From positions 4,456,501-4,520,500 of the forward strand of contig NZ_CP133480.1 in the NCBI RefSeq assembly GCF_031195445.1: a DNA stretch of 64,000 nt, written 5' to 3'. The first letter of the stretch is position 1. Every line of letters begins with the position of its first letter. The position numbers and the translations under genes were made by a program. The DNA comes from Acuticoccus sp. MNP-M23. GTDB taxonomy: Bacteria; Pseudomonadota; Alphaproteobacteria; Rhizobiales; Amorphaceae. Shown here piece by piece: positions 40,048 to 50,715 of this stretch. The notes beneath the pieces were generated by a model. That model did not search any database. It saw only the letters and a list, made by a program, of their open reading frames with translations, and was not told where the DNA came from.

Positions 40048-40149
40048 CGCTTCAGCCTATGGCTCCGGTGCGGAACGCACGCGTGCGCTCCGAAGAATGG
40101 TTTGCATCCAGAATGACCGTTCGCAGCGCGCGGGATTGGTTACAGCGCC

Positions 40150-41080
40150 GGTCCGCGCTTTCGGCTTTTGCGCTGCCAGACGGTTTAGTGCGGCTGTGTG
40201 CCCCCACACCTTCGCCGCCGCTGCCGGCTGCCTTGCCCTTCCTGCCCACGCCGGCGCAGCCGACGCGAAAGCCCTGATCGCCAAGCATGCCGAGCTCACC
40301 ACCTACACCGCCCCCAGCAAGGCCTACGACACCAAGGCGTGCACGGCGCGCAGGAACATCTGCGCGATCGCGCTCATCGACAGGCAAGGTGGCATCCCGC
40401 CCGAATTCCTGGCCTCGCAAATCATTGGAGCACGCAACCCCAGTGTGAAGGTCACCACCGGCCACAACTAAGGCGCTTCACCCAGACCCCGCGCGACTAA
40501 CTCGACGGTTCCACCAACACCGACCACGTGACGGTGGGCGAAATTATCGCGCCGTGAACGATCGCCCAGACGAATGGCAACTGAGACGCGCTGATGCTGA
40601 GCCTGGGCGAGCTCATCCGGGCGGCCCCTTGCGCGATGCGATCATCGCCTTTTTCGCGGAGAACTGCTGGGAATGCACCAAACGATACGTCAACGAGCCG
40701 GTGGGCCGACCGGGCAACAAAAACGCAGCCTGCCCGTGCAGAAGGCGCTGCTGGCAGCCCCCTCGATCAACAAAGCCGCTGACCGCAGGCGAGATTATCG
40801 GCGCCATCGATCCTGTTCCAGACGCCGGCCATCTCATTTCAGGTCAAGGAGCGGGGTGAGACCGCCATCATCGTCGGCTGCAACCCACCCGGCTGCGTGC
40901 GCGCATCCGTTGCCGACTTGGCATCCTAGGATGACCGCGAGATTTTGCCGCGCAAACGCTCCGGCGACGTGAAAGAAGGCACGCCGCATCGGCAATCTGC
41001 GCGATGTCGGCCGCCATTATGCCGTGGTGAATTCGCTGAGAGACCTGATCATCGCGTTGACGCAGGTGGAACCGGCCTGA
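40150..41080 (+). pseudogene. Decayed sugar-type periplasmic binding protein gene
   Basis: A readable start survives as a signal-peptide-like stretch (about 40200-40260, ending LPAHAGAAD) followed by ELTTYTAPSKAYDTKACTARR and a downstream piece ending in a stop at 40471. That pattern resembles the N-terminus of sugar ABC transporter binding proteins, where a TAPGxxFD segment precedes the core. After 40471 protein-like scraps continue in other frames (RRFTQTPRD at about 40473-40500, ETAIIVGCNPPGCVRASV near 40857-40917, VNSLRDLIIALTQVEPA up to 41080), broken by frameshifts and stops. I read it as one inactivated gene; the family assignment is by eye only. Confidence 0.35.
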
Positions 41081-41084
41081 GGCC

Positions 41085-41783
41085 TCAGAGGGACTGGAAG
41101 CCGCCCTGCGCCAATGCCGGTCCGGTCGGCGCGCCGGTGGGTGAGCCGCCTGCGGGCTCGGCCGTCACCACAAGTTGCGCGTTGCGCAGCACCGCATCGC
41201 TCTCGCGCGGCAATTTGATCCGGCTGCCCTCAGCAGAATTGAGCAGCCCCAGAGACACCGGGGCCGTGCCATCGATCACCAGCCACAGCTCGGGGTCGCG
41301 CTCATCGGACACGGCCGCGCCGAACGGCGCAGTTACCAAAGTGCCGTCGCGTTGCAGCCGGGCCAGGGTGATCCCGCCGTCTTCGCTGCCGACGATTGCC
41401 GCGACGAGCGCCTCCTGGCTGAGGATCACGCCCGGCCGGACGATGAGGATCGCAGCCAGAGCAAACCCGCCGACGGCCGCTGCGCCCAGCATGGTCGCCG
41501 CAGTGCGCCAGAACGCCAGCGCAACCGGCGTGCCGCGGCGCTTTGAAGCACCGGAGGTTCCTAAAAACAGGCTCTTCTCGACATTGCCGAGGACCCGCGC
41601 CGATGGCTTGCGTGCGGGCAGCGCTTCGGCCAGCGGTGCGAGTTCAGCTTCCGCGCGCCAGACCTCGGCAGCAAGCGCCGGGTCGTCGAGCAGGGAAAGC
41701 TCGAACTGGCGCCGCTCGTCCTCGCCGGTCAGACCGAGGACATATTCCATGGCATCGATCTTGTCGTCGTCGGTCACATTCAC
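41085..41783 (-). CDS. Anti-sigma factor, RskA/anti-sigma-K type, single-pass
   Basis: This 232-residue membrane protein holds the adjacent ECF sigma factor. It has an N-terminal cytosolic anti-sigma region (MEYVLGLTGEDERRQFE, as in the RskA family), one transmembrane helix at about 88-112 (AATMLGAAAVGGFALAAILIV-like) and a periplasmic C-terminal RskA domain with DPELWLVIDGTAPVSLGLL. The GTG start overlaps the sigma stop (GTGA), so the two are made in balanced amounts. The inducing signal is unknown. Confidence 0.85.
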   Translation of the reverse strand: MNVTDDDKIDAMEYVLGLTGEDERRQFELSLLDDPALAAEVWRAEAELAPLAEALPARKPSARVLGNVEKSLFLGTSGASKRRGTPVALAFWRTAATMLGAAAVGGFALAAILIVRPGVILSQEALVAAIVGSEDGGITLARLQRDGTLVTAPFGAAVSDERDPELWLVIDGTAPVSLGLLNSAEGSRIKLPRESDAVLRNAQLVVTAEPAGGSPTGAPTGPALAQGGFQSL

Positions 41784-42319
41784 TGGCTCACGCACCCTTT
41801 CAGGTCTGCAAGTGCGCGGCGCATTCGGCTCTTTACGGTCCCAAGCGGAACGTTGTCGCGCTCCGCCAGCGCCGCGTAGGTCACACCGCCGAAATACGCC
41901 ATTCGCACGAGCCGGGCGTAGGGATCGCCAAGCCCATTGATGCAATTGAGAAGAACGCGGGCAAAGCCGTTCGCCATCGCCTTCTCGTCGGGACGCAACG
42001 TGGTGTCGGCTACCCGCTCGGCCGCATCGAGCGCCGCGGACGGTGCCTTGCGGGCGCGCAGCCTGTCGATCGCGACATTGCGAACAATGGCGGCCATCCA
42101 CGTCATCGGGGCAGCCTTGCTCGCGCTGAACCGCTCAGCATAGCGCCAGATCTTAACGTATGCGTCCTGCAAGGCATCCTCCGCCTCATTGCGCTCTTGA
42201 AGGATACGCAGCGCAACGGCGAATAGTTTAGGGGACGAGCGATTATAAAGGGTGCGGAACGCAGCGCGGTCGCCGAGAGCAGTGCGCTCGATCAGGGTGT
42301 TGAAGTCCACGTCGTTCAT
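41780..42319 (-). CDS. ECF-type RNA polymerase sigma factor (SigK-like)
   Basis: This sigma factor of 179 residues has region 2 (about 15-85, with NEAEDALQDAYVKIWRYAERF and WMAAIVRNVAIDRLR) and region 4 (about 125-175, with TYAALAERDNVPLGTVKSRMRRAL, a helix-turn-helix). The RskA-like partner downstream is translationally coupled. It has a promoter 25 bases upstream that looks housekeeping-like. It may control genes outside the window; no shared promoter motif was recognisable among its neighbours. Confidence 0.9.
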   Translation of the reverse strand: MNDVDFNTLIERTALGDRAAFRTLYNRSSPKLFAVALRILQERNEAEDALQDAYVKIWRYAERFSASKAAPMTWMAAIVRNVAIDRLRARKAPSAALDAAERVADTTLRPDEKAMANGFARVLLNCINGLGDPYARLVRMAYFGGVTYAALAERDNVPLGTVKSRMRRALADLKGCVSQ

Positions 42320-42344
42320 CCGGCGATCCCGCTGTTATCGGCGA

Positions 42345-42373
42345 GACATACGCGCGGCCCGCCGAACTGACAA
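42345..42373 (-). promoter_or_regulatory. Promoter of the sigma/anti-sigma operon
   Basis: TTGTCA at 42368-42373 and TATGTC at 42345-42350 on the minus strand are exactly 17 bases apart, giving a leader of about 19 bases before the sigma ATG. It looks like a sigma-70 rather than an ECF promoter. Confidence 0.45.
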
Positions 42374-42563
42374 TTGCGGGGGGATCGAGTTTATCGCCAC
42401 CCGAGCTTAAAAAGCGTCAAGTTGCCACAGACCCGGCGAAGATTGCAGATCGTCGCCGTCATTCAGGCCGTGGATGACCTTGCCGACGGAACAGAGCGAC
42501 GTGGCAGCGGGGCGACGAATGCAAGGCCGTGCGTTTGTACGGAAGGATGGGCATCCAGATGCG

Positions 42564-42872
42564 TCAGGCGACGCGGGACGGTCCCTCGTCGGCGGTGCGG
42601 GCCGGGGTCTTGCTGAACATCGGCGGCAGAAAGGCTTCCACCGGAGCATCGAGCGCCTTACCGAGGTTGCACAGGCGCAGGACCGAGATGTTTGCCTCTC
42701 CATGCTCCAGCTGCGCAATGAACCGCTCCGAAAGGCCTGACGTGTCGGCCAGCTTGCGGCGCGACAGCCCGGCGTCGGTGCGCATTCGTTTCACGCGCTC
42801 ACCCAGCTTAAGCAGGAACTCGCTCTCGGCCTGATTTCTGATCGGAGAATCAATCTTGTTCAGCGAGCTCAT
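42564..42872 (-). CDS. XRE-family helix-turn-helix regulator
   Basis: This 102-residue DNA-binding protein has a Cro/C1-type HTH from about 22 to 80 (GERVKRMRTDAGLSRRKLAD, then ERFIAQLEHGEANISVLRL). It lacks any extra sensor domain; the C-terminal tail is short. A strong GGGGAGGGG lies just before the ATG. It stands between the sigma/anti-sigma pair and small orphan genes, in an AT-richer stretch. The target operator was not found. Confidence 0.88.
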   Translation of the reverse strand: MSSLNKIDSPIRNQAESEFLLKLGERVKRMRTDAGLSRRKLADTSGLSERFIAQLEHGEANISVLRLCNLGKALDAPVEAFLPPMFSKTPARTADEGPSRVA

Positions 42873-42890: not shown

Positions 42891-43037
42891 TCACGCTACA
42901 TTTTTAAGGTACAAGCGCCATTCTTGCTTCATTTTGTTAAGCACATAAGCGGCCTGAAGGAAATGCGACCAATAGTGATGAACAGCCGTTGACAGAGCGA
43001 TCTGCTTCTCAATCCGGTTAAGGAGCTTGTTTCCCAT
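42891..43037 (-). CDS. Possible small orphan protein (48 aa)
   Basis: An ATG at 43037 opens 48 residues with a protein-like helix-rich composition (LLNRIEKQIALSTAVHHYW, KMKQEWRLYLKNVA). It ends 18 bases before the XRE gene on the same strand and would be co-transcribed. No Shine-Dalgarno is seen, base use is AT-rich (25 G or C in 60 bases at 42901-42960), and I do not recognise it. Confidence 0.3.
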   Translation of the reverse strand: MGNKLLNRIEKQIALSTAVHHYWSHFLQAAYVLNKMKQEWRLYLKNVA

Positions 43038-43089
43038 ACGGATTTGCAAATTGGGTCTAGAATTACGAATTGTGGAAATTCTTGCCGCC

Positions 43090-43317
43090 CTATAAGAGAT
43101 TGTGCAATGTTCTGCCTGACGGCATCGCAGTGCTCTGGATCTCGCGGGGCTGAGACGACAGCGCGTCCACCGCACGCGAGATCAATGCGGCGCAATAGGC
43201 CTCGCCGTGGCGGTCTGCTTCGGCCATGGCATATTCAAGCAGACGGGTCAGCACCTCGTAGTCGTCCGGCATGACCGCATCGTTGGAATTGTTTCCGATA
43301 ATTGTCGGCGCATTCAT
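43090..43317 (-). CDS. Small hypothetical protein (75 aa)
   Basis: The ATG at 43317 has GGAG six bases upstream and opens 75 residues, with a helical middle (PDDYEVLTRLLEYAMAEADR, then HGEAYCAALISRAVDAL). This helix-pair pattern occurs in many unannotated small alphaproteobacterial proteins. I do not recognise a function. It is divergent from the BTAD-type regulator gene, about 225 bases apart. Confidence 0.6.
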   Translation of the reverse strand: MNAPTIIGNNSNDAVMPDDYEVLTRLLEYAMAEADRHGEAYCAALISRAVDALSSQPREIQSTAMPSGRTLHNLL

Positions 43318-43464
43318 TTTGATCTCCGCTTTCGTAGCGTTTGCATGGCCTTTGTAATGTGGCATCGTGATTTCATCGTGAAAGTGAAATCTGACTGCAA
43401 TTGCTTGCATTTGATGACCGGCAAAGCCTGCCTTTCGGAAAACCGGCATCAATTGGCCACAAAA

Positions 43465-43492: not shown

Positions 43493-43542
43493 AATATGGC
43501 AACCCGATGGCAGAATTAATGTCTCGATGAAAGCGAGTTGTG

Positions 43543-45543
43543 ATGGAGCGTTGCGCGGTAAGGGTTCAGCTTCTGGGACAGCCGGTGTTCACCCTCAATG
43601 GCGGCATCGATTTCCCATCGCGTAAATCGCACGCACTTTGCGTATATCTGGCCGCCAACAGTGCAAGACGCATTGATCGGGGCCAGCTGAGCGCGTTGCT
43701 CTGGGGGGACGTGGACGAGGCGCAGGCCAGAGGCTCGCTGCGCAAATGCCTCAGCGTCATTGGCGGCAACCCCTGGACGGCTTCGCTGATTGCGCGAGAC
43801 CGGAGCAGCGTCTGGTTCGCAGGCGATCCGAGCCGGGTGGATGTCGCCCGCTTCAACGCGGCAATCAGCCGCCGCACAACAAGCGGCTTCAGGGAAGCGC
43901 TCACGTACTGGACCGGCGAACCCCTCGCCGGCATGGAAAACGGCGCCATCAATTTTGACGATTGGGTTTCGCAGTACCGTGCACAAACGCTGCACTTTTC
44001 GCACAACTACCTGACCGACGCGCTGAACCAGCTGGCCGATGAGCCGCTCGACACGCGCTCCGACATGTTGATCGCCCTGTGTGAGCTGATGCTGCGGATC
44101 GAGCCGGCCGACCATCGTGCGGGCGAAATGCTGATCGGCGAGTATGCGCGGATCGGCAACGTTGTGGCAGCCGCGCGGCAGTATCGCGCCCTGGGCAATG
44201 CGCTGCGCGACCTCGACATGCCGGTGCCGCGCCGCCTGATCGCGCAAGCTGAGGGGCTTGGCATTGCAGCCTCGAGTGCGACGGTCGAGTTTCGCAGCAC
44301 GGCTTCGCGGAACCCGGAGGCTGACCGCGGCACGCCGACCGTGATGCTGATGCGCCCGCAAGGCATCCAGACCTCGGCGGATCTCTTCACTTTCGCCCAG
44401 TCCGAGGTGATGTGCCAGCTTGCACGGTTCCGCTCGATCCGCGCCTACGAGGACCTTTCAGGTTTCGGCGAGAACACGGCAGCTGGCGAGAAAACCGGGC
44501 AATCCGTCCAGCAGATCGGGATCGACCCGGATAAACCGGATCACGATTACCGGCTGCTGTTGTGGAACGAACCGAATGTGCGGTCGCTCTACCTGCGCTG
44601 CGTCAATACGCGGCGGATGAACACCGTGTCTTGTGTCAGGCTGGATCAGGATCTGCTGGCCGACCGCTCGCGCACCGAAGAGGCCATCGCGACTGCCATC
44701 AACACAATCGAACGTGACATCCTCAACGACGAGGCCCTGCCGCCAGGGACCGTGTTTGCAAGGTGGCTGAGCGCCTACCGGGAATTGCAGACGTTCACGA
44801 CACAGGGCGACCAGGTGGCGCTCGAAATCCTGGAAGATCTTGCGGCAAGCCCGGACGGGGCCCGGTTCAGTCTTGTGCACTCGTCCATCGGCGCGATCAC
44901 GATGAAGCGGAACCTTTACTCACCGGTCCTGTTCGCAAATGAGGAGCTGAGCTTCGCCAAGGCGCGCCACTGCGTCGAGCGTGCCCTCAGCCTCGATCCA
45001 CTCGAGCCGTTCAATCACAGCATCGCCGGATGGCTGGAACTTCAGTCCGGCCAGCATAGTCGTGGGCTGGCAGCCTTTCAGAACGCACTTTCCCTGCAAC
45101 CCTACTCCAACCGAACGCTGATTTCGGCTGCGGAGGGGCATGCCTATTGCGGCCATCTGGAAACCGCACGGGACCTTGCGGCAAGGGCGATGAACATTTC
45201 GGGCCGATATGCACCAGCCTACTTTCACAGTTACCTCGCCACCATCGCCTATCTCTCGGGCGACCTGGAGGAATGCGTCCGCCGGTTGAACCGAGCCCCG
45301 GTGAACATCCAGACATCGCTCCTCGCCGTGGCCGCCAACGAAGAGCGCGGCGACGAGACCGGCATCGCCGAAGCCCGCGTCCAGTTCGAGCGCGAACTGC
45401 GCCGTCTGGAGCCGCCCCGGTCGTTCGACCTTGCCGCCCTGTCGCGCTGGATCGTCAAATCCAACATGACCAAGGACGACACCACGCGGCGGCGCATGTT
45501 TGCCTCACTGGAAAGAGCCGGCGTCGCGGCCAGTGCGCACTAG
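43543..45543 (+). CDS. BTAD/SARP-type transcriptional regulator with TPR region
   Basis: This 666-residue protein has an N-terminal winged-helix segment at about 1-95 (RVQLLGQPVFTLNGG, SRKSHALCVYLA, QLSALLWGDVDEAQARGSLR), a bacterial transcriptional activation domain at about 100-235 (YWTGEPLAGMENG, LMLRIEPADHRAGEMLIGEY), a middle region like TolB/adenylate-cyclase-type regulators, and TPR-like repeats at about 475-600. Such proteins activate biosynthetic gene clusters in response to an unknown signal. It is 29 bases from the 3' end of the converging NHLP peptide gene. The ATG at 43543 is used; GTG three bases before is possible. Confidence 0.85.
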   Translation: MERCAVRVQLLGQPVFTLNGGIDFPSRKSHALCVYLAANSARRIDRGQLSALLWGDVDEAQARGSLRKCLSVIGGNPWTASLIARDRSSVWFAGDPSRVDVARFNAAISRRTTSGFREALTYWTGEPLAGMENGAINFDDWVSQYRAQTLHFSHNYLTDALNQLADEPLDTRSDMLIALCELMLRIEPADHRAGEMLIGEYARIGNVVAAARQYRALGNALRDLDMPVPRRLIAQAEGLGIAASSATVEFRSTASRNPEADRGTPTVMLMRPQGIQTSADLFTFAQSEVMCQLARFRSIRAYEDLSGFGENTAAGEKTGQSVQQIGIDPDKPDHDYRLLLWNEPNVRSLYLRCVNTRRMNTVSCVRLDQDLLADRSRTEEAIATAINTIERDILNDEALPPGTVFARWLSAYRELQTFTTQGDQVALEILEDLAASPDGARFSLVHSSIGAITMKRNLYSPVLFANEELSFAKARHCVERALSLDPLEPFNHSIAGWLELQSGQHSRGLAAFQNALSLQPYSNRTLISAAEGHAYCGHLETARDLAARAMNISGRYAPAYFHSYLATIAYLSGDLEECVRRLNRAPVNIQTSLLAVAANEERGDETGIAEARVQFERELRRLEPPRSFDLAALSRWIVKSNMTKDDTTRRRMFASLERAGVAASAH

Positions 45544-45572
45544 CACACTGGCCGGCGAACGGTGGGCAGCGC

Positions 45573-45878
45573 TCAGCTGAGAGGGCGCAGGCACCCCAGG
45601 ACCGCCATGGTGCCGAGCATCTTGAGATATTCGTGGTCGTTGGCGCGCAGGCGGTTCTGATCCACCGCACTGGGCAGGACGAGGTGGATCGTGTCGTCCT
45701 CGTCTTCGTGAAGCACGATCTTCAGCCCTTCCAGGTCCTTGGGCGCGACGCCGGCCGCCTTCAGATAGGATTCCGGGTCATTGCGAAACGCTTCGCGCTG
45801 TAGCGGATCGTTCGCCGCCTCGCCAAATGCCTTGCCGATGGCCGGGACCGCCGAACGGTTGACCGCAATTCTCGCCAT
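45573..45878 (-). CDS. NHLP leader peptide family RiPP precursor candidate
   Basis: This 101-residue peptide has a nitrile-hydratase-alpha-like leader: GKAFGEAANDPLQREAFRND, ESYLKAAGVAPKDLEGLK and the late strand VLHEDEDDTIHLVLPS. That pattern is diagnostic of NHLP precursors of modified peptides. The C-terminal 30 or so residues are the putative core. They contain one Cys (96), two Ser/Thr and no Gly-Gly cleavage site, which is unusual. The ATG at 45878 has a GGGG run upstream; the frame is open to 45968 and further. It is divergent from a YcaO gene, 88 bases apart, and is the likely substrate of that enzyme (inference). Confidence 0.78.
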   Translation of the reverse strand: MARIAVNRSAVPAIGKAFGEAANDPLQREAFRNDPESYLKAAGVAPKDLEGLKIVLHEDEDDTIHLVLPSAVDQNRLRANDHEYLKMLGTMAVLGCLRPLS

Positions 45879-45922
45879 ATTCCCCCCGCGCTGATCGCGC
45901 TTAACCAAACCTTCGAGATGAT

Positions 45923-45945
45923 CTGCGACATCAAAAGGATCGCAG
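45923..45945. promoter_or_regulatory. Inverted repeat in the NHLP/YcaO intergenic region
   Basis: CTGCGA at 45923-45928 and TCGCAG at 45940-45945 form perfect 6-bp arms, 11 bases apart, in the middle of the 88-base divergent spacer. The spacing would fit a dimeric regulator, with the BTAD protein an obvious candidate. No clear -35/-10 pair was found. Confidence 0.35.
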
Positions 45946-45966
45946 TCGATTTTTGCTTCGTAGAAC

Positions 45967-47241
45967 ATGAATGATGACCTGTTCGCTTTTGTTGACCGCT
46001 GGAGCGTGTCCGGCAGCGCAGTCACTATACCTATAGTTGATTTTCCAAATCAAGCGTTTGAGCTCGAGCGCTTTTCATATCTGATCGAAGATTGCCCGGC
46101 TCACTTTCATTTTTGCTTCCCAAAACGGCTCCAGCCAGCAGCGCCAGCCTGGATGATCGATTGGAGAGCAGCCGCTGGCCGCGCATTTTCCGCCAATAAT
46201 TCCGCTATTTACAGTGTTTTTGAAGCCATCGAGCGCGCGTGTCTCATCTCAGGGTGGGACAACGATCCGCGGATAAATGAAAGCCAAAACGACACAGATG
46301 CCACTGCCTCGACGCTGGAGCTCACCAATTTCAGTGCAAGGCAACGCGCCGAGCTGCAATCGGCCACCGCCGCGTTATCAACCATAGATTTTACACCGCC
46401 GCATCACGCGAGACGCGTGGTTGCGCAGAGTCTGTTGGCTAACGAACGCACAAGTCTCCCCGCCCGGTCGGTCCTGTTCGGGGAAGATGTTCGCGACGGG
46501 TTGCCTCCGGTGTTCTCATCGTCCTCAGGCGCGGCGCTCCGCGGGACGCGCGCGGACGCAGCACGCCACGGCACACTGGAGCTGGTGGAGCGAGATGGCG
46601 TCGCGATCTGGTGGTACAACCGCCTCATTCCAAAGCGGCTTGCGGTGGATGCGGCGGCGGCCGCCCTCCCCGCCGACCTTGCCGCCTTTCTGGCAGCGCG
46701 CCGGCGGCAGACCTGGCACCTTGCCCTCCCCAGCGACCTGGGGGTGCCGGCCATCGTCGCGCTTTCGGCCCGGTCCGATGGCAGCGCCCCCGCCATCGGT
46801 GCGGCCGCCGCGCTGGATCCGGCCGACGCCGTGCGCTCGGCAACGCTCGAACTCCTTCAGGGCGAAATCAACCTGTCGCTGATGCGGCAGGCGCAGCGTG
46901 CACCGAACCCGCCGCCCGTCCCGCCGCTTCTGGCATGGTCAGCGTCCACCAATGCCCTCGCCGACCCCGCGCTTGCCGGGGTGGGCACCACCGACCCCAC
47001 TCCGGCAACGCGCTGGGACACCCTTCTGGGCACCTTCGCGGAAAAGGGGATCGATCTTTATGCGGTGGACCTCACGCGCGCCGAATTTGGTGTCCCGGTG
47101 GTCAAGGCCGTCTCCCCGCAACTGCGGGACTGGTTGCCGCGGTTCGGCCCCGGCCGGCTCTACGAGGTGCCCGTTGCCCTTGGCATTCAAACCGCCCCCA
47201 CCCCGGAGGACGCGCTCAATCCGGTGCCCTTCGTCATCTGA
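45967..47241 (+). CDS. Stand-alone YcaO-domain protein
   Basis: This 424-residue ATP-dependent peptide-backbone-modifying enzyme family member has ATP/Mg-binding elements at 79-93 (SAIYSVFEAIERACL), 198-213 (AARHGTLELVERDGVA) and 283-298 (LDPADAVRSATLELLQ), and a C-terminal tail NPVPFVI comparable to the Pro-rich tail of YcaO cyclodehydratases. No E1/ThiF-like partner, TfuA or flavin dehydrogenase lies near, so azoline, thioamide or amidine formation are all possible. Only about 70 residues precede the domain. The 5' part of the gene is AT-rich and its 3' part GC-rich. Substrate is inferred to be the divergent NHLP peptide. Confidence 0.85.
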   Translation: MNDDLFAFVDRWSVSGSAVTIPIVDFPNQAFELERFSYLIEDCPAHFHFCFPKRLQPAAPAWMIDWRAAAGRAFSANNSAIYSVFEAIERACLISGWDNDPRINESQNDTDATASTLELTNFSARQRAELQSATAALSTIDFTPPHHARRVVAQSLLANERTSLPARSVLFGEDVRDGLPPVFSSSSGAALRGTRADAARHGTLELVERDGVAIWWYNRLIPKRLAVDAAAAALPADLAAFLAARRRQTWHLALPSDLGVPAIVALSARSDGSAPAIGAAAALDPADAVRSATLELLQGEINLSLMRQAQRAPNPPPVPPLLAWSASTNALADPALAGVGTTDPTPATRWDTLLGTFAEKGIDLYAVDLTRAEFGVPVVKAVSPQLRDWLPRFGPGRLYEVPVALGIQTAPTPEDALNPVPFVI

Positions 47242-49536: not shown

Positions 49537-50715
49537 ATGAGTGGCGGGGGCGCCGGGCGCCCTAAATTCGTCGTCCATGCCGGAATGCACAAGACCGGCT
49601 CCAGCGCGGTGCAGGCATTTTGCCGCAAGCATCCGCGGGTGCTGAAACGGCTCGGCATCGCCTACCCGCGGGCGTTCTACCAGAACCACAAGTTCGGCAC
49701 GATCTCGCTGTTCATGGACGAGCCGGCCAAACCGCGCGAGGATGTCAGCCATCGCCCGCGCGGCTATGCGCCGGACGACCTGAAACACGCCTTCGACGCT
49801 TTCCTCGAGCGCGCTGCGAAAAAGCGGCAGCATGTGCTTTTGTCCAGCGAAACGGCGGTGAACCTGTCCCCTGACGGGCTTCGCCGGCTGGACGAGGCTG
49901 CGGCCCCGTCCTTTGCGCCGGTGGAGATCGTCGCGCTCCTGCGTCCGCCGCTCTCCTTTGCGCAGAGCGCAAGCCAGCAGCGGCTGAAGGGCGGCATGTC
50001 GCTCGGCCGCCTCGAAGAACGCCTGCCGCTCCCCGAATATGAACGCCGTTTCGAGCACATGCTCGCCCACTTCGGGCCTGAGCGGCTGCATCTGGCGCCC
50101 TACCACCCGTCGACGCTGGTGGGCGGCGACGTGTTTCAGACCGTGGTCTCGCTGATGGGCCTCGACCCCGCCCCCGCCGCCGCACACCGCACGGAGCGGC
50201 GCAATACCGCCATGAGCCTCACCGCGGCGAAGGCCCTGTCCGTCTTCAACGCATGCATTCGCGAAAACGCAATCACCGCAGATGTGCCGGCTTCGCTTGC
50301 CGCCCGTTTCGACGATCCGGTCATGCACCGCTTCCATGACGGCTTTTCGATCAGTTTCCAGCGGCACGACACGCCGATGCGCCTGCTCCTGCCGGTCTTT
50401 ACCGGAATTTCCGGGCCGCCCTACCGCCTCACCGGCACGATGATGGACAACGTCACAGCCGCCTCCCGCAGCGATTGCGAATGGCTCTCCCGCAATTTCG
50501 ACATCGACATCCAGGCCTTCGACATTGCGCCAGACGAGGCAGTGCCGGCGGAAAGCCTCACGACTTTCGAGCCGGACGAGCTGGCGCGCATTGAAGCCGC
50601 GCTCGATGCGTTCATCGCCAATGCCGAAAACACGCTGCTGGAACTTGAGGAGCAGACGGCAACGCCGCTGTCTCGGGCGCGCAAGCTCTTCCGCGCCGTC
50701 ACAGGTATCGGCTGA
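49537..50715 (+). CDS. Sulfotransferase-like protein
   Basis: This 392-residue protein begins with a PAPS-binding-like P-loop, FVVHAGMHKTGSSAVQAFCR, the 5'-phosphosulfate loop pattern (GxxKTGS/T). A later Arg/Ser stretch (VEIVALLRPPLSFAQSASQQR) may correspond to the 3'-phosphate-binding motif. The acceptor is unknown; cell-surface sugars or small molecules are typical. It starts 27 bases after trpE(G), so it may be read from the same transcript without a shared pathway. The start shown is GTG/ATG-level certain within a few codons. Confidence 0.7.
   Translation: MSGGGAGRPKFVVHAGMHKTGSSAVQAFCRKHPRVLKRLGIAYPRAFYQNHKFGTISLFMDEPAKPREDVSHRPRGYAPDDLKHAFDAFLERAAKKRQHVLLSSETAVNLSPDGLRRLDEAAAPSFAPVEIVALLRPPLSFAQSASQQRLKGGMSLGRLEERLPLPEYERRFEHMLAHFGPERLHLAPYHPSTLVGGDVFQTVVSLMGLDPAPAAAHRTERRNTAMSLTAAKALSVFNACIRENAITADVPASLAARFDDPVMHRFHDGFSISFQRHDTPMRLLLPVFTGISGPPYRLTGTMMDNVTAASRSDCEWLSRNFDIDIQAFDIAPDEAVPAESLTTFEPDELARIEAALDAFIANAENTLLELEEQTATPLSRARKLFRAVTGIG

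Follow-up and report, generated by a model that had tools for sequence, protein, structure and literature searches.

A stand-alone YcaO enzyme and a small protein resembling nitrile hydratase leader peptides (NHLPs) form a conserved gene pair in Acuticoccus sp. MNP-M23 and related bacteria, and we read this pair, with a probability of about 0.6, as an enzyme dedicated to the modification of its partner protein, with thiazoline formation as the leading chemistry. The pair lies in a 64,000-nucleotide stretch, here called the window, of contig NZ_CP133480.1 (positions 4,456,501 to 4,520,500; assembly GCF_031195445.1). The YcaO gene (positions 45967–47241 of the window, plus strand) encodes 424 amino acids, and the gene of the NHLP-like precursor (45573–45878, minus strand, in its 101-amino-acid form) is divergent from it, with 88 bases between the two. 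A regulator of the BTAD/SARP (Streptomyces antibiotic regulatory protein) type with a C-terminal TPR region (plus strand, from a GTG at 43540 or an ATG at 43543 to 45543) converges on the peptide gene. These coordinates, the spacing, and the converging regulator had been given in a first-pass annotation and were all borne out. That annotation described a minimal locus of three genes; the trio does recur in other genomes, but a small fourth gene also belongs to the module.

The locus recurs more than chance would give. The same layout of peptide, YcaO, and BTAD regulator genes was found in seven of the eight Acuticoccus genomes (the relatives include A. mangrovi, A. kalidii, and A. yangtzensis), in one Rhodobiaceae metagenome-assembled genome (MAG; G032), and in Arboricoccus pini. 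Neither the peptide nor a YcaO orthologue was found in the eighth Acuticoccus genome (G001, a MAG that is 89% complete). When the window genes were compared by tblastn, the order and orientation of the regulator, peptide, and YcaO genes were identical in seven other loci. A single-sequence search with P0003 in 101 genomes gave eight strong matches, including that in its own genome (E = 1e-66 or better; next 1e-23), and among the 21 genomes searched for the peptide, it was present in exactly those eight. In a sample of the order (397 genomes), a profile of ten peptides matched 16 genomes among the candidates scored, and eight of these belong to another family of the same order, labelled f41. 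The YcaO profile matched 54 of the 397 among the candidates scored, 16 of them with at least 501 bits (next 260), and these were the same 16 genomes as those with the peptide. Because module members went into profiles A7 and A8, the gap in scores is to some extent built in for those; 40 of the 48 f41 genomes described below lie outside the profiles.

Family f41 was searched as a whole (87 genomes). A profile of 18 peptides matched 50 genomes, 48 of them strongly, and the YcaO profile matched 60, of which 48 had a module-type score. The same 48 genomes had both the strong peptide and the module-score YcaO, the other 39 had neither, and none had just one, although the f41 genomes are related and the 87 are not independent events. 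The peptide gene is thus not missing from genomes carrying the YcaO orthologue, the outcome that would have spoken against a functional pair. In all 48, the two genes were divergent on one contig, with 253–703 bases between the aligned parts; where a genome had several peptide matches, the one beside the YcaO gene was taken. Two genomes (G841 and G843) had weak, leader-only matches and no module-score YcaO. In G783, the YcaO is in two pieces (213 + 105 bits), the better of which is outscored by three YcaOs of the order sample that lie outside the module (260, 252, and 218 bits). Two other genomes, G805 and G829, each contain two peptide pairs and one YcaO over the threshold. In all eight f41 loci inspected, the YcaO gene was divergent from the peptide genes and the BTAD gene converged on them.

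Among the candidates scored in a class sample (385 genomes), only the window's own genome and three leader-only peptide matches were found, and no YcaO was present at the two leader-only loci inspected; in a phylum sample (398 genomes), the own genome stood alone among the candidates scored. At most 12 peptide and 4 YcaO candidates were scored per genome in the order, class, and phylum samples, as against up to 57 and 19 in f41, so absences in these samples are weaker than those in f41. No match to one f41 YcaO was obtained by tblastn in 72,556 plasmid records. Ten non-module loci, chosen among the stand-alone YcaO loci of 38 order-sample genomes, contained no homologue of the BTAD regulator or the small gene within approximately 9 kb, and their best match to the peptide profile reached only E = 0.0012 (L209). 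Within Acuticoccus, the peptide is more conserved than the enzyme (61–80% versus 45–55% identity). In the open-access literature, we found no paper joining such a YcaO, an NHLP, and a BTAD protein.

The relationship of the peptide to NHLPs is a weak but consistent signal in sequence and model. The first-pass annotation had called it an NHLP-type peptide, and the likeness stands, whereas membership in the TIGR03793 family does not. The peptide scored 16.3 bits against TIGR03793 (cut-off 50.9) and had no Pfam match; nine of ten relatives matched TIGR03793 at E values of up to 1 (best 3e-5). A profile of the ten relatives, searched against the sequences of the PDB, gave weak top matches to nitrile hydratase alpha chains (E = 0.0085) and to the NHLP MprE7 (E = 0.038). 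The predicted structure contained helices at residues 8–23, 25–33, and 35–41, two short helices, and a C-terminal helix at 82–94. Its matches in the PDB had low Z scores (DprE2 proteusin, 5.0; SonA, 4.4; Os1348, 4.0), at which other folds are possible, and eight of the nine entries listed were precursors of ribosomally synthesized and post-translationally modified peptides (RiPPs) or members of the NHLP clan. Haft et al. (2010; PMC2887384) define NHLPs by a Gly-Gly motif that closes the conserved region and by a hypervariable core. Since no Gly-Gly motif was seen in the 18 aligned Cys-type peptides, the core is not hypervariable, and the score is under the cut-off, the peptide is not a TIGR03793 member, but it may work like an NHLP precursor. 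The metal-binding CxxCSC of nitrile hydratase was absent.

The C-terminal end of the peptide is its most conserved part. Nine positions were invariant in all 18 Cys-type peptides (M1, L39, D59, P69, D81, Y84, L88, G89, and C96), five of them in a last motif with the pattern D..Y[LF]..LG......C and a single invariant Cys, just after the C-terminal helix (45591–45638, minus strand; the putative modification site). The stretch containing this motif (81–96) had the highest mean majority identity of five stretches (0.66, compared with 0.48 for 8–49 and 0.59 for 50–80) and contained one Cys, or two in three peptides. The invariant Cys lay 1 to 9 residues from the end in 17 of 18 peptides, and residues 72 and 77 were aliphatic in all 18. 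In each of the eight inspected f41 loci (L145–L152), a tandem paralogue retains leader sequence without the Cys motif; a leader Cys occurs in two of these paralogues, and a Cys at the last residue in one. Such a paralogue might act as a partner to the Cys-type peptide. Arboricoccus contains, besides the trio, a second Cys-type peptide with a long C-terminal tail, which adjoins a TPR-like open reading frame (ORF; under the Pfam cut-off) and a major facilitator superfamily (MFS) transporter gene (L054, 14866–17805). Two candidates for further precursors in the genome of MNP-M23 were rejected: the one at C1:1151453-1151806 matches PF02979 with 230.3 bits and is a nitrile hydratase alpha chain, and C1:2912196-2912585 reads by eye as another, with the motif CTLCSC. 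By locus, the two nitrile-hydratase-type alpha subunits of the genome are at L162, 7379–8014 (by Pfam), and L163, 7128–8048 (by eye).

The YcaO family call of the first-pass annotation held firmly (PF02624, 153.7 bits; cut-off 25.7), and by sequence and model the protein corresponds to the D half of a TruD/LynD-like cyclodehydratase without its C half, which carries the RiPP recognition element (RRE). Its closest PDB relatives by sequence were TruD, LynD, and MusD, in the D domain only (E = 5e-56 to 2e-43). An AlphaFold2 model built from an 18-row alignment (predicted local distance difference test score 88.7; predicted template modeling score 0.90) was superimposed on LynD (4v1u) over 383 residues, beginning at residue 18 (residue 356 of LynD), with a Z score of 34.7 and a root-mean-square deviation of 3.4. 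Most relatives of the enzyme are single chains of at least approximately 740 residues, which as a rule align with it from about residue 400 onward, and the window protein thus lacks the approximately 400 N-terminal residues that they carry. Residues E86, E89, E205, E208, R209, and E295, aligned with those of LynD and TruD, were invariant in all 17 module YcaOs, and Q298 was nearly so; we take the six invariant residues to be the ATP/Mg site, and an enzyme stripped of ATP-binding residues, which would have undercut the pair, is therefore not what was found. The Acuticoccus chains end in N-P-[VIL]-[PG]-F-V-I. In an unrooted tree of 17 module YcaOs, 24 fused enzymes, and 2 other single-domain YcaOs, for which 26 of 80 loci of relatives were drawn on, all the module YcaOs lay on one side of one branch (support 99/97), which was present in all 200 bootstrap trees.

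The missing half was looked for elsewhere in the genome. A C-domain profile made from the first halves of 11 fused chains (threshold E = 0.01) found three fused enzymes in Nostoc (1e-147 to 2e-98), a positive control that is also one of the 11 rows of the profile, and found nothing over the threshold in seven Acuticoccus or four f41 genomes. In the genome of MNP-M23, the best match to TIGR03882 was 14.2 bits, under the cut-off of 36.9. The suggestion that the missing functions are encoded elsewhere was therefore not upheld for the C partner, which profile searches of this genome did not find; the exporter, protease, and dehydrogenase were not searched for genome-wide.

The regulator itself scored 21.1 bits for BTAD, just under the Pfam cut-off of 22.1, with weak TPR matches, but all six homologues tested exceeded the cut-off. 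A homologue was found in all 17 loci inspected (the L145 copy is split over two frames). The fourth gene encodes 75 amino acids (43090–43317, minus strand); its ATG at 43317 was chosen from relatives, and the ORF is open to 43452 and beyond. Homologues are divergent from the regulator gene in all seven Acuticoccus module loci and in all eight inspected f41 loci, and Acuticoccus and f41 profiles of this gene, built separately, found each other (E = 2e-9 to 3e-6; in reverse, 2e-7 to 4e-4, with one member at 0.07). Between the two genes lies the direct repeat CGTGA-N6-CGTGA, with an 11-bp period (43366–43381, plus strand), a putative SARP-type operator. It was found at this place in 14 of 15 four-gene loci (six of seven Acuticoccus and eight of eight f41), in all cases toward the BTAD gene. 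With the N6 spacer there were 16 matches in 380,671 bp, two of them elsewhere in the f41 loci, and other spacers gave 0–4; a 19-base form of the repeat is expected 0.02 times in the window with three mismatches allowed. In the G032 and Arboricoccus loci, neither the small gene nor the repeat was seen. SARP sites are described as heptamer direct repeats, with a classical unit of 11 bp (PMC10972967), and the BTAD protein probably binds the 11-bp direct repeat at its own promoter. As a common element of the two intergenic regions, only one shared 9-mer was found in one of eight loci and none in the others, and a promoter and terminator scan gave nothing above shuffled sequences.

The peptide may also be made in a longer form. 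An in-frame extension of 30 codons (45879–45968, minus strand) would give 131 amino acids, and its outer ATG (45966–45968) overlaps the ATG of the YcaO gene (45967–45969) in a CATG. The frame stays open up to an equivalently placed ATG in five of seven Acuticoccus genomes; the other two have no ATG there. In four genomes, the variable columns of the 90-nucleotide extension fell at the three codon positions as 13, 7, and 20 of 30 each (p = 0.0027); the first 60 nucleotides gave 5, 1, and 11 of 20 (p = 0.0019) and a five-genome set 20, 14, and 25 (p = 0.0099), whereas in the next 60 nucleotides upstream, inside the YcaO gene and in the same frame, 15, 16, and 18 of 20 columns varied. This codon-position pattern argues for coding rather than for conserved promoter DNA and indicates that the 131-amino-acid form is translated. 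The inner ATG is also preceded by a purine-rich site, so both starts may be used.

Taken as a working mechanism, the RRE-less YcaO would directly recognize, without an E1/C protein, the folded helical domain of the NHLP-like protein with which it is paired, and would activate, at the expense of ATP, the backbone amide adjoining the invariant Cys near the C-terminus of that protein. The likeliest product would be one thiazoline (−18 Da), presumably left unoxidized, as the module has no linked dehydrogenase; bottromycin is a suspected precedent for making a thiazoline without a C protein (PMC4603692). The BTAD regulator would bind the repeat in its own promoter and so control itself and the small divergent gene. 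We infer the enzyme–substrate relation, the modification site, the chemistry, the direct recognition, and the binding by the regulator alike. Because the target is conserved rather than variable and the enzyme lacks the docking half, the system resembles a function built into the cell more than it does an antibiotic, and our guess is that the protein, once modified, or a C-terminal fragment of it serves a conserved physiological purpose (as a signal, or in metal or cofactor chemistry) and is not a diversifying antibiotic. A bolder version, which we put forward tentatively and as unlikely, would be a housekeeping-type, non-combinatorial RiPP in which the folded NHLP-like protein, bearing a single invariant heterocycle installed by the YcaO, is an intracellular signal or a cofactor-bearing protein, its YcaO having dispensed with the RRE and its state being read out by the adjacent BTAD regulator, that is, a four-gene circuit that modifies and senses.

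Several observations weigh against a dedicated modification of the partner. The known NHLP–YcaO pair, MprE7/MprC, depends on an RRE (PMC12455567), which the window YcaO lacks, although the peptide retains the aliphatic-(X)4-aliphatic pair that in MprE7 binds the RRE. Two weak C-domain matches in the Rhodobiaceae MAG (1.6e-6 and 2e-5; G032:C235:20380-21591), on another contig than the module, suggest that a remote partner may exist. The score of the YcaO against SagD (TIGR03604) was 142.3 bits, under the cut-off of 219.25, and midpoint rooting groups the Arboricoccus YcaO with the fused enzymes, in which case the module YcaOs would not form a single clade. The distances of the peptide and YcaO are correlated (Mantel r = 0.93, n = 17; 0.71 within Acuticoccus and 0.92 within f41), which favors a dedicated pair, but such correlations also arise from shared ancestry alone, and co-inheritance could mean co-function without enzyme–substrate chemistry. 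The repeat is missing in one Acuticoccus genome (G007), in G032, and in Arboricoccus, and as it was not found before the peptide or YcaO gene, control of that pair by the BTAD protein is at most hypothetical.

The YcaO might act on the same peptide by another chemistry, forming a thioamide or an amidine near the C-terminus with an external donor of sulfur or an amine, which we regard as possible but rather unlikely. The enzyme postulated to form the bottromycin macroamidine is a stand-alone D protein (PMC4603692), and the position of the Cys so close to the end of nearly all the peptides is compatible with it. However, an invariant Cys is what azoline formation needs, the fold and the best sequence relatives of the YcaO are those of azoline-forming TruD/LynD-type D domains, and the TfuA family was not seen among the flanking ORFs tested, whereas one TfuA adjoins the other YcaO of the genome. 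That second YcaO (C1:1908329-1909321) was rejected as an enzyme of this pathway: its type differs (TIGR03266, at 247.7 bits short of the cut-off of 365), and it stands beside TfuA and a B12-binding radical SAM protein. Its surroundings (G000:C1:1899000-1918900; L043, 7004–10574) form a separate locus of the YcaO–TfuA type with, by eye, transposase- and resolvase-like ORFs around it.

An ordinary NHLP azol(in)e antibiotic pathway, with its E1/C protein, dehydrogenase, exporter, and protease encoded elsewhere, seems quite improbable. Distant precursors and enzymes are known for the class (PMC2887384, PMC4603692), the genome-wide search was confined to the C partner, as stated above, and an MFS gene adjoins the second Arboricoccus peptide. 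Against these stand the absence of any C domain over the cut-off in the genome, a core that is conserved and has no Gly-Gly site, and neighborhoods that share little: by BLAST, the Acuticoccus and f41 loci have in common, outside the module, overlapping antisense ORFs and just one gene family, which lies far from the module in six of eight f41 loci and matches two of seven Acuticoccus loci. We think it very unlikely that the protein stays unmodified, with the NHLP-like protein and the YcaO serving as partners or as regulators (the BTAD regulator being one possible target) and the YcaO having another substrate. The end is conserved as in a functional protein, and all the inspected f41 loci retain an adjacent paralogue that has no Cys motif, but the invariant Cys of the Cys-type peptides would then need another reason, and the catalytic positions of the YcaO are kept in 17 of 17.

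Among the flanking genes tested, none is a known RiPP partner. As the first-pass annotation had noted, E1/ThiF, dehydrogenase, peptide exporter, and protease families are not in evidence; the flanking ORFs that were tested gave no match to any of them. On the minus strand upstream of the module, an XRE-type regulator, an extracytoplasmic function (ECF) sigma factor, and an RskA-type anti-sigma factor are followed by ptsP and an aspartate kinase; downstream are a fused anthranilate synthase (trpEG), an ORF that matches no Pfam family, a phytase-like esterase, Fur, BioY, and TrpF. By tblastn, the ECF, anti-sigma, helix-turn-helix, and trpEG genes are also at the six other Acuticoccus loci and not at G032; the ECF sigma, RskA-type anti-sigma, and XRE-type genes (41085–42872) are thus kept beside the module in seven Acuticoccus genomes and were not seen beside the Rhodobiaceae MAG module. 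Pfam matches were absent for the flanking ORFs 40097–40471, 42891–43175, 43090–43452, and 49537–50715. The last of these, downstream of trpEG, encodes 392 amino acids and matches neither Pfam nor NCBIfam.

The module is an unusual combination of known parts, in which a distinct group of RRE-less YcaOs is tied to one NHLP-like protein with a fixed end and to its own regulator. The familiar role of NHLP leaders is to deliver variable cores to modifying enzymes, via an RRE in the YcaO case that has been studied, whereas the module YcaOs, across several alphaproteobacterial groups, have a fixed target with one invariant Cys and no RRE. This two-protein system makes testable both how an RRE-less YcaO finds a folded leader and what role a conserved, apparently non-antibiotic partner plays. 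Like the NHLP family TIGR03793 and the NHLP clusters of thiazole/oxazole-modified microcins described by Haft et al. (PMC2887384), the peptide has a similarity, here a weak one, to the nitrile hydratase alpha chain without the CxxCSC metal site, but it differs in its score and in the lack of a Gly-Gly motif and of a hypervariable core rich in Cys, Ser, and Thr, and no ATP-binding cassette exporter is among the flanking genes tested. With MprC/MprE7 (Wakeel et al. 2025; PMC12455567), the module shares the NHLP-type helical leader, the YcaO superfamily, and the aliphatic pair before the core, residues 72 and 77 resembling the L(X)4L pair of MprE7 that touches the RRE. According to that study, however, the RRE of MprC binds leader helix 1 and L(X)4L, and the RRE/C half is missing from the window YcaO; moreover, the Mpr pathway has ten precursors and an oxidase, MprD, whereas here there is mostly one Cys-type precursor per locus, with an invariant motif and a single invariant Cys, and no oxidase was seen. 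The enzyme is close to TruD, LynD, and MusD in its D-domain fold (Z scores of 31.9–34.7; 21–28% identity in the structural alignment) and its aligned catalytic positions, and to TruD and LynD in the C-terminal N-P-x-P, but these are C–D fusions of approximately 780 amino acids and the window protein is the D half alone. Bottromycin clusters also have a YcaO without a C protein, but with two D proteins, methyltransferases, and a different precursor. The regulator resembles the SARPs of Streptomyces antibiotic clusters, as these are described in PMC10972967, in its BTAD-like domain, which scores just under the Pfam cut-off in the window protein, and in the direct repeats of an 11-bp period at the promoter, its putative binding site; it differs from them in being alphaproteobacterial, in its C-terminal TPR region, and in having the repeat at its own promoter.

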